In this document: in pieces, positions 5,608 to 33,107 of the stretch
Layout: each line of letters begins with the position of its first letter
Numbering within the stretch: the first letter of the stretch is position 1
From: a virus
Reading direction: 5' to 3' (one strand)
Virus record (IMG/VR): IMGVR_UViG_3300021961_007557
Location: 1-34,043 of that record
DNA: 34,043 nt
The notes under the pieces: generated by a model
What the model was told of the DNA's origin: nothing
The model's database searches: none
What the model saw: the letters and a program-made list of their open reading frames with translations, nothing else
Made by a program: the position numbers and the translations under genes

Positions 5608-5847
5608 ATGTTTAGAATGAACGATCACACAGACGATTTAAGAGATACTGATTGGAGATACAGTGAAGAAAGGATGCAACTTAGAGCAATGGTTTTTCAT
5701 GCATTGTCTCATCATCTTTATAATCACTGCAGACAAGTTTATGAGTTTTGTGATCACTGGGTAAGTCAAGGAAATAAGGGTATAGATAATATAGAATCAT
5801 TTTTTGAAGAGTACCTTGAACAACTTGACACTAAATGTAAAAAGTAA
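5608..5847 (+). CDS. small soluble protein, unknown
   Basis: This 79-residue protein is charged and histidine-rich (HALSHHLYNHC) and predicted helical. It starts directly after the previous stop with a good GGAGAGGA upstream. A strong early promoter overlaps its 3' end. No family is recognised. Confidence 0.55.
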   Translation: MFRMNDHTDDLRDTDWRYSEERMQLRAMVFHALSHHLYNHCRQVYEFCDHWVSQGNKGIDNIESFFEEYLEQLDTKCKK

Positions 5848-5853
5848 TATACT
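5825..5853 (+). promoter_or_regulatory. sigma70-type early promoter for the HNH gene
   Basis: TTGACA (5825-5830) and TATACT (5848-5853) are separated by 17 nt. The predicted start is near 5860, upstream of the late promoter at 5871, so early RNA from here includes the complete hairpin in front of the HNH start. Confidence 0.65.
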
Positions 5854-5870
5854 ATTTCTGATCTCTAAGT

Positions 5871-5905
5871 TATAAATATTTGGGAGTGCTTTTTTTCTTC
5901 CCAAA
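5871..5905 (+). promoter_or_regulatory. consensus late promoter plus start-codon-proximal hairpin
   Basis: An exact T4 late motif TATAAATA is at 5871-5878. TTTGGGA (5879-5885) pairs with TCCCAAA (5899-5905), which directly abuts the ATG at 5906. The late start expected near 5884 removes most of the 5' arm, whereas early RNA from 5860 keeps it. Confidence 0.65.
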
Positions 5906-6271
5906 ATGATAACTAGAACTTGTAAAGAATGTGGTGTAGTCCATTCCTTGACAGATTTTCCTCTTGCTGGTAATATTAAAGGAGTCAACTATTATAGGCA
6001 CAAATGCATTCAGTGTTACTCTAAGCAAAAAACTAAAGAAGCACAAAAACGCATGAGCAAATTTAGAGAGTATAAAAAAACTCTTAAATGCAATCGTTGT
6101 GGATATAACGATTATAGAGCACTTGAGTTTCATCACCCCATTGATGATAAAGAAGGTCAACCATGTATTATTGCTAGACAAAGATCTTGGAAAAATGTAT
6201 TGGAAGAACTAAATAAGTGCGAAGTTGTTTGTTCTAACTGTCATAGAATAGAACATTATAACGGGCATTAG
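5906..6271 (+). CDS. HNH endonuclease (free-standing, homing-type)
   Basis: This protein has 121 residues. An N-terminal zinc-binding module (CKECG, then HKCIQC near 33-38) precedes the nuclease part: CNRCGY (about 60-65), FHHPID (about 73-78) and CSNCHR (about 110-115). Together these give the ββα-metal HNH signature with structural cysteines. Such free-standing enzymes in T4-like phages cut homologous sites and spread themselves. Its TAG stop is formed by T8-A9-G10 of tRNA-Pro, so the gene is fused tightly to the tRNA. It has both early and late promoters with a hairpin switch. Confidence 0.82.
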   Translation: MITRTCKECGVVHSLTDFPLAGNIKGVNYYRHKCIQCYSKQKTKEAQKRMSKFREYKKTLKCNRCGYNDYRALEFHHPIDDKEGQPCIIARQRSWKNVLEELNKCEVVCSNCHRIEHYNGH

Positions 6272-6335
6272 CGCAGTTTGGTAGCGCGTTCCGTTTGGGG
6301 CGGAAAGGTCAAAGGTTCAAATCCTTTATGCCCGA
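6262..6335 (+). tRNA. tRNA-Pro (TGG)
   Basis: The acceptor CGGGCAT pairs with ATGCCCG, and the discriminator is A. The stem TTCCG/CGGAA surrounds the anticodon loop with TGG at 6296-6298. The T arm AAAGG-TTCAAAT-CCTTT is intact. Its first ten bases overlap the HNH gene. Confidence 0.93.
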
Positions 6336-6336
6336 C

Positions 6337-6704: not shown

Positions 6705-6777
6705 GCTGGTTTAGCTATCTGGTGAAAGCACCCGACTCATAATCGGATATAGGTGGGTTCGATCCCCACAATCAGCA
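6705..6777 (+). tRNA. tRNA with CAT anticodon (Met or Ile2)
   Basis: The acceptor GCTGGTT pairs with AATCAGC, and the discriminator is A. The loop CTCATAA gives CAT at 6738-6740. The T arm GTGGG-TTCGATC-CCCAC is intact. The sequence alone does not separate elongator Met from lysidine-modified Ile2; the tRNA just upstream already has an AUA-type loop. Confidence 0.9.
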
Positions 6778-6801
6778 TGGACAGAATCAAAACTGTCCTA
6801 C

Positions 6802-7870: not shown

Positions 7871-8344
7871 ATGTCTAAATCTTTGTATCTTTCTCGTTAT
7901 TCTGTTGAGCAACTCCGTTTTTTGCTGTCTCAATCATTTACATTTTGGGAGTTCTGCCAGAAGGTTGGTTACACTAACAAATCTTCTGCTACTTATAGAT
8001 CAGCAAAAAACTATTTACAAAAGCAAGGTATCAAATTTGAGGAATACCCGCACGTATTCCGTCGTGTTGGCACCACAACCCGTAAATCTGATACTGATGT
8101 ATTTGTAAATGGTAAATATCATGATACAAGAAGTTTAAAAAAACGTCTTATTGATAGTGGAGTCGAATACAAATGTTCCTCTTGTGATATTAATAGTTGG
8201 ATGGGAAACTCTCTAACACTTCAAGTAGATCACATAAATGGAAATAATAAAGATAATAGAAAAGAAAACTTAAGATTTTTGTGTCCGAACTGTCATACTT
8301 TGACAGAGACATGGGGGTATAAAAATAAAACCCCTTCTGTGTGA
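7871..8344 (+). CDS. HNH endonuclease (homing-type) inside a structured RNA region
   Basis: This protein has 157 residues. The N-terminal part (about 1-60) is basic and helical and probably binds DNA. The nuclease part contains CSSC (about 97-100), VDHINGNNKDNRKENL (about 116-131) and CPNCHT (about 135-140), a complete HNH signature with zinc-binding cysteines. It is flanked on both sides by hairpins of the same architecture (7569-7822 and 8353-8386), so it may have inserted into that array. A TA-rich stretch (TATATACT at 7845-7852) upstream could be a -10, but the -35 is poor. Confidence 0.85.
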   Translation: MSKSLYLSRYSVEQLRFLLSQSFTFWEFCQKVGYTNKSSATYRSAKNYLQKQGIKFEEYPHVFRRVGTTTRKSDTDVFVNGKYHDTRSLKKRLIDSGVEYKCSSCDINSWMGNSLTLQVDHINGNNKDNRKENLRFLCPNCHTLTETWGYKNKTPSV

Positions 8345-32591: not shown

Positions 32592-32653
32592 CATTGTCGT
32601 GCAAAGGATCCTTCGGGATCCTTTTTTTTTATAAATAATAATGCACGACAATG
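32592..32653 (+). promoter_or_regulatory. 12-bp inverted repeat enclosing terminator and late promoter
   Basis: CATTGTCGTGCA (32592-32603) is the perfect complement of TGCACGACAATG (32642-32653), which ends 1 nt before the endonuclease ATG at 32655. Late motif ATAAATA (32631-32637) predicts a start near 32643, inside the 3' arm. psbA read-through RNA would pair the arms; late RNA cannot. Confidence 0.7.
32603..32630 (+). terminator. psbA terminator with TTCG loop
   Basis: AAAGGATCC (32603-32611) pairs with GGATCCTTT (32616-32624) around the stable TTCG loop, and a T run to 32630 follows. Confidence 0.88.
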
Positions 32654-32654
32654 C

Positions 32655-33107
32655 ATGAATACCATGGCAAAAACAACTCAAACCACTGGCACTAAAACTT
32701 GTAGTAAATGTGGTATAACTAAAGATATTAATGATTTCTACAAGAGGGGTGGTAAAACTTCTCCTAATACCAGACACAATCATTGTAAAGAATGCACTAA
32801 AAGTAGAGTTGCTAAAACTTATTGGAATGATCCAAGTGTTTATCAAAACAATCATCTAAAAAGAAATTACGGCATAACTCTCAATGAATATTCTCAGATG
32901 CTTGCAGAGCAAAACAACCAGTGTGCTGTGTGTCACACTACTGATCCTGGTGGTAAGCATGGAAAGTTTGTGGTAGATCACTGCCACACCACTGGTAAAG
33001 TTAGAGGGATACTTTGTAAACGATGTAACATTGCATTAGGGGAGGTTGGTGACAACATCAGCACCCTGGAAAAGATGATTGGTTACTTGAGCACAAACAC
33101 TCATTGA
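32655..33107 (+). CDS. endonuclease VII-type HNH homing endonuclease between psbA and psbD
   Basis: This protein has 150 residues (147 if ATG 32664 is used). An N-terminal zinc knuckle (C16, C19, C44, C47) is followed by the recombination endonuclease VII core: C90-x-x-C93, VDHCH (D108, H109, H111) and LCKRCN (C121, C124, N125). A free-standing HNH endonuclease just downstream of psbA is known in cyanophage S-PM2 (F-CphI), which targets psbA intron sites. This gene occupies the same place, so a homing role is likely. Confidence 0.88.
   Translation: MNTMAKTTQTTGTKTCSKCGITKDINDFYKRGGKTSPNTRHNHCKECTKSRVAKTYWNDPSVYQNNHLKRNYGITLNEYSQMLAEQNNQCAVCHTTDPGGKHGKFVVDHCHTTGKVRGILCKRCNIALGEVGDNISTLEKMIGYLSTNTH

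Follow-up and report, generated by a model that had tools for sequence, protein, structure and literature searches.

The T4 homing endonuclease I-TevI, a GIY-YIG enzyme encoded in the td group I intron, binds at its own late promoter an operator that is similar to its homing site but is cut about 100-fold less (PMC2988022). The homing-site-like sequence overlaps the late promoter, and a hairpin is present at the start region (PMC2988022). SegB of T4 and T6 is a free-standing homing endonuclease that resides in a tRNA cluster and cuts inside tRNA genes (PMC2988022, PMC13096335); phage homing enzymes thus do cut tRNA genes (PMC13096335). The segB gene also has a late promoter and a hairpin at its start (PMC2988022). 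The motif reported for this GIY-YIG enzyme is RAWTSGAAC, whose reverse complement resembles, by its letters, a T arm. The mobE gene of Aeromonas phage Aeh1 encodes a free-standing HNH enzyme and combines a late promoter with a hairpin that sequesters the ribosome-binding site (PMC2988022). In intron-borne homing systems, the anticodon region of a tRNA gene can be a homing target. Finally, the PeSL elements of T4-like phages, located in shuffled regions, associate an early promoter with a terminator stem-loop (PMC4503421).

The locus analyzed here lies in a virus sequence of 34,043 nucleotides (hereafter the window), which contains psbA and 11 tRNA genes and is cyanophage-like. A late promoter motif, an inverted repeat and an HNH gene are found in immediate succession at the 5' end of a tRNA-Pro gene (Table 1). 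As with I-TevI, a sequence resembling the target, here presumed to be the adjoining tRNA gene, is located at the late promoter; in contrast with I-TevI, the enzyme is a free-standing HNH protein and the sequence is present in two inverted copies. The locus shares its tRNA-cluster setting with segB, but neither the reported SegB motif nor the repeat of segB itself is an anticodon-loop sequence. It also differs from mobE, which sits in nrdA and for which the extract of PMC2988022 describes no link between hairpin and target, and from intron-borne systems, since the ORF runs into the 5' end of the tRNA and leaves it uninterrupted. Two assignments to known systems were tried and rejected. A PeSL cassette likewise joins a promoter to a stem-loop; here, however, the retained promoter is of the late type, no terminator-like site is called on the + strand and a single gene family is involved. 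T4 segB was considered as an earlier case of an operator that is also a target, but its 12-bp repeat does not contain the reported SegB motif. We found no description of an anticodon-loop operator in the literature searched, mostly at listing depth.

Table 1. Features of the HNH/tRNA-Pro locus (window coordinates)
Feature	Position	Strand	Basis or remark
Sigma70-like early promoter, TTGACA-N17-TATACT	5825..5853	+	Score 11/12; TTGACA 5825-5830, TATACT 5848-5853
T4-type late promoter motif, TATAAATA	5871..5878	+	Sequence; recurs in relatives
Half-site 1, TTTGGGA, equal to a tRNA-Pro(UGG) anticodon-loop sequence	5879..5885	+	Sequence comparison
Half-site 2, TCCCAAA, inverted; 13 nt past half-site 1, abuts start codon	5899..5905	+	
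Free-standing HNH endonuclease ORF, 121 aa; ATG at 5906, TAG stop within tRNA-Pro	5906..6271	+	phrog_2255, 3.4e-28
tRNA-Pro(UGG); first 10 nt double as HNH ORF end and TAG stop	6262..6336	+	
tRNA-Pro anticodon loop, TTTGGGG; 6/7 identical to half-site	6294..6300	+	

The window protein carries the HNH catalytic motif and fits the profile of its family. Its relatives conserve two N-terminal CxxC pairs and the HNH core with little or no change: in 22 aligned rows, H77, N111 and H113 are invariant, while H76 and H117 are nearly invariant. Pfam gives no match for the window protein, and PF01844 matches weakly in seven of the 22 rows. The AlphaFold2 model is confident (pLDDT 89.5). Another HNH gene, at 7871-8344 of the window after tRNA-Met, belongs to a different family (phrog_10822). 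An Rfam search of the window returned only tRNAs plus one sub-threshold match to Plastid-ycf2 (6705-6778, minus strand), which lies opposite tRNA-Met and is probably an echo of it.

The initial annotation had interpreted this arrangement as an expression switch: early RNA would carry a hairpin hiding the start codon, and late RNA, initiated within the hairpin, would lack most of its 5' arm. The early promoter, the late motif and the pairing of the two half-sites just before the ATG are all present in the sequence as it had described them. Yet the window holds two copies of TATAAATA, where 2.3 are expected by chance, and the RNA from 5860 to 5950 has an ordinary fold stability (z -1.3; 24 of 200 shuffles equally good), so that an observation made in this single sequence could be due to chance. 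The only other TATAAATA of the window, at 32630-32637, is located between psbA and an ORF at 32655. A late motif written NATAAATA has been reported in cyanophages (PMC2984593). The doubt is removed by comparison: a search for late motif, repeat and ATG in combination retrieved 35 viral contigs, and in 35 of 35 a member of the same HNH family follows directly. The search pattern itself prescribes the motif letters, so that their invariance in these contigs is built in. When relatives were collected by protein instead, late motif and repeat were found at the start in all eight close relatives (L001-L008, of which L001 is near-identical to the window), with differing sequence upstream; they are absent from nine distant ones (L009-L017), whose identity is 52% or lower. 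Columns upstream of the cassette are poorly conserved among relatives.

The early promoter fares differently. The switch had included it as part of the unit, but a score of 11 or 12 is reached in about nine of the 28 different Pro loci of the main clade (10 of the 31 Pro rows scored, a set in which two rows repeat contigs of others). An equally good promoter, TTGACA-N17-TATAAT, is found in the lake Synechococcus phage DSL-LC03, which lacks the HNH gene, within the gene upstream of tRNA-Pro; such a promoter before tRNA-Pro therefore needs no HNH gene. Judging from these comparisons, the early promoter is no constant part of the HNH unit. In the window, it may serve the tRNA-Pro transcript, with the HNH gene lying in between, and a hairpin silencing HNH in this early RNA would be useful there.

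The same phage illustrates the mobility of the gene. DSL-LC03 has a tRNA-Pro with similar flanks, and the left flanks of twelve HNH-containing contigs are similar to its own; the HNH gene is thus absent from the same site in a related phage, as for a free-standing homing endonuclease. The HNH and tRNA-Pro pair is also present in the Synechococcus phage S-CAM3 (Kyanoviridae), and the cassette in viral contig L271. Of the 35 composite contigs, 31 contain the complete ORF (27 of them distinct), and every one of these has tRNA-Pro overlapping or adjoining the ORF end; the stop at tRNA nucleotide 10 recurs in relatives. In DSL-LC03 (L523), a small upstream gene (1699-1824) likewise runs 10 nt into tRNA-Pro and stops on the same TAG, hence ending on the TAG of the tRNA is not peculiar to the HNH gene. 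Wherever this upstream gene is recognisable in HNH-containing contigs, it stops just before the late motif, as expected if late motif, repeat and HNH gene were inserted between gene and tRNA.

Other junctions were observed. In L274 and L290, the cassette with its late motif is immediately preceded by a 5' piece of tRNA-Pro (CGGGGTGTAGCGCAG) that belongs to another allele, as though an earlier tRNA-Pro had been broken within its D arm. Relatives encoded in bacterial chromosomes (L373, L374 and L377, from cyanobacterial and Abditibacteriaceae contigs) end inside tRNA-Pro(UGG) and have no repeat. The HNH relatives at L375, L376 and L380 follow a complete tRNA-Pro(CGG); in the chromosomal L375 and L376, a scrap of tRNA 3' end comes after the ORF. 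HNH ORFs ending inside a tRNA, again with no repeat, are also found in the unrelated phages crAss001 (L516, Gly), KIL4 (L514, Gly), KoPa-4 (L292, Gly) and Klebsiella phage DP (L513, Lys).

The sequence of the repeat follows the anticodon loop of the tRNA that adjoins the gene. The loop of tRNA-Pro is TTTGGGA in many relatives, against TTTGGGG in the window, and half-sites next to other tRNAs match the respective loops: TTTGTAA for Thr, CTTCTAA for Arg, YTGCGAA for Arg(GCG) and CTTCCAA for Gly. We gathered HNH relatives by protein similarity and from phage records. Among 267 HNH ORFs, 91 have a tRNA at their 3' end, and removal of 13 duplicates left 78 distinct loci. A locus was scored as matching when its upstream region holds the loop of its own tRNA and an inverted copy 10-16 nt apart, with at least 12 of 14 positions identical. 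Such an own-loop repeat is found in 51 of the 78 loci and spans five tRNA species.

Because 27 of the 78 loci had been chosen by the motif itself, and are biased, they were excluded from the permutation test. In the 51 protein-selected loci, 24 matches are observed: 16 of 23 for Thr(UGU), 4 of 8 for Pro(UGG) (three of these four being contigs also found by motif), 2 of 2 for Arg(UCU), 1 of 1 for Arg(GCG), 1 of 4 for Gly(UCC) and 0 of 13 for other tRNAs. Reassigning the loops of other tRNA species 10,000 times yielded a mean of 1.6 and a maximum of 7 matches, and a base-shuffle control gave 53 matches in 10,200. Matching loci occur in 10 of 31 protein clusters at 70% identity (all 78 loci) and at six places in a tree of 77 HNH proteins, many forks of which are weak: the Pro clade, the Thr clade, an Arg(UCU) pair, L446, L400 and L440. 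When the 5' half-site is compared with the whole tRNA, the anticodon loop alone gives the best match at 38 of the 51 matching loci; at the remaining 13, all Pro, it ties for that rank.

Two loci scored as misses were kept as leads. The Thr locus L490 has a repeat, GGTTCGAA, around the late motif; it is T-arm-like, the T arm being the region that SegB seems to recognise, and matches its own tRNA at 6 of 8 positions only. At the Cys locus L449, a repeat of 8 bp with a spacer of 13 agrees with its own tRNA at 7 of 8 positions outside the anticodon loop. The KVP40-like Asn loci L518 and L520 have no match.

The geometry of the repeat is constant. The gap between half-sites is 13 nt in most loci and 12 nt in Arg(UCU), Gly and L440; it is identical in 35 of 35 Pro contigs although the search pattern allowed 5-25. 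Half-site centres are 20 bp apart, or about two helical turns. Spacer length is fixed while spacer sequence is variable. In a motif-first scan for the Thr type, which gave at least 120 matches, adjacent HNH genes were found, among the 80 matches listed, at 9 of 18 sites with a spacer of 13 and at 0 of 62 with other spacings; two of the matches listed, with a spacer of 9, have an HNH match within 1.2 kb, but with neither an adjacent HNH ORF nor a tRNA they were not counted as adjacent. What changes is the position of the repeat. The late motif comes just before it in the Pro clade and also before it in Gly, inside it in Thr and Arg(UCU), and after it in L446 and the Pro locus L440. Repeat and start codon are -1 to 1 nt apart in the main Pro clade, 5-16 nt in Thr and Arg(UCU) (a value of 8 for L394 and L395 reflecting a late-placed match start) and 21-25 nt in the other three (L446, L440 and Gly).

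These observations bear on whether the repeat acts as RNA or as DNA. In a T4-type RNA switch, the early read-through RNA folds over the start codon, whereas late transcription begins within the 5' arm and yields an RNA that is translated. The precedents cited for such a switch, gene e and I-TevI, do follow this logic in T4, as do segB and Aeh1 mobE (PMC2988022, PMC3014915), and the 12-bp repeat of T4 segB spans both late motif and start codon. In the window and in 35 of 35 pattern-found Pro contigs, there is a hairpin in the start region whose 5' arm adjoins the late promoter. Folding at the window locus gives a mean unpaired probability, over the 8 nt before the ATG, of 0.08 in RNA from 5860 against 0.41-0.51 in RNAs from 5882-5886. 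The region is thus more open in the predicted late RNA, if not fully so. Late RNA is expected to start about six bases past TATAAATA, and a start anywhere within GGGA keeps part of the stem. Nor is there a Shine-Dalgarno sequence within the 3' arm.

A hairpin over the ribosome-binding site or start codon is confined, across the family, to the main Pro clade. In the Thr, Arg and Gly types and L440 the repeat ends 5-25 nt upstream of the start codon, and in L446 and L440 even upstream of the late motif. The arms show no G-U pairs (0 in 217 cells for Pro, with five mismatches over seven pairs in 31 cassettes; 0 in 130 cells for the first ten Thr pairs, with eight mismatches in 13 cassettes), and neither this nor a fixed spacer of variable sequence is expected of an RNA switch, which also leaves unexplained why the arm always copies the loop of the particular tRNA next to the gene. 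In the Thr type, covariation is observed at pairs outside the half-site. An RNA hairpin predicts this covariation, but neither the tRNA match nor the changing position, whereas a symmetric DNA site predicts loop match, constant gap, changing position, absence of G-U pairs and covariation. The switch interpretation is thus partly supported; as an explanation of the repeat in the family it is unlikely, and it is probably not the main point of the locus, for which an operator is the better reading.

Two further explanations take the likeness to tRNA as their starting point. The mRNA might have a leader that senses tRNA: its 3' arm is complementary to the neighbouring tRNA loop in all matching types, so that free tRNA could melt the hairpin or mask the start region. 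We regard this as highly improbable, since the repeat of L446 and L440 precedes the late motif and is therefore missing from late RNA, and since no inverted pair at fixed spacing would be required. Alternatively, the repeat may be a functionless, duplicated tRNA scrap left by insertion into the anticodon loop, for which the tRNA-Pro fragments of L274 and L290 and the 3' scraps of L375 and L376 might speak. This too is very unlikely: two inverted copies are kept at constant distance across a divergent clade, and the HNH-less allele places the insertion at the 5' end of the tRNA, not in its loop.

We consider it probable, though far from certain, that the repeat at 5879-5905 serves as a DNA operator bound by the HNH protein itself, a candidate free-standing homing endonuclease recognising a tRNA anticodon loop. 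This reading is based on the match of the repeat to the loop of its own tRNA well beyond the reassigned controls, on a spacing that stays constant while position relative to promoter and start varies, on the I-TevI precedent and on the DSL-LC03 allele. The HNH protein would recognise the anticodon loop as encoded in a tRNA gene, that of tRNA-Pro(UGG) in the window, and would cleave this gene, at whose 5' end its own gene is placed. Two inverted 7-mer copies of this sequence overlap or abut the late promoter, so that, by analogy with I-TevI autoregulation, enzyme made in sufficient amount would bind the repeat and stop late transcription. The Pro-type repeat, which reaches the start codon, can also fold in early read-through RNA and may add a translational delay. 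That the operator should instead serve a different phage or host protein is the least probable explanation; inverted repeats at promoters are common operators in general, but this one follows in sequence the tRNA beside the HNH gene.

Several observations argue against the operator. A matching repeat is missing from 27 of the 51 loci selected by protein, among them L014, L373, L374 and L377 of the Pro type and seven Thr loci. HNH-containing genomes keep the anticodon loop of the tRNA, so self-cutting would need to be avoided. The loop of the window is one base off the half-site, and a tRNA holds one half-site copy against two in the operator. Covariation beyond the Thr half-site is also expected of an RNA hairpin. 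Finally, a fold search of solved structures gave no match at E 0.001, the best being Hpy99I (0.14).

To our knowledge, the targets of free-standing homing endonucleases are usually not known. If operator and target are the same sequence, the promoter alone predicts what the nuclease recognises, and such a copy is available in 51 of 78 distinct loci. We may further hypothesize, with about an even chance of being right, that a family of small HNH homing enzymes has moved from tRNA to tRNA, the operator being rewritten each time as two inverted copies of the new loop and thereby displaying the target, with nuclease specificity readable from the promoter. If true, I-TevI-style self-control would extend to free-standing HNH enzymes, and the restraint of a nuclease aimed at an anticodon loop would be explained. 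Enzyme and operator changing together would be a natural case of target switching, and cyanophage tRNA clusters would form a natural set for studying how such enzymes change specificity.
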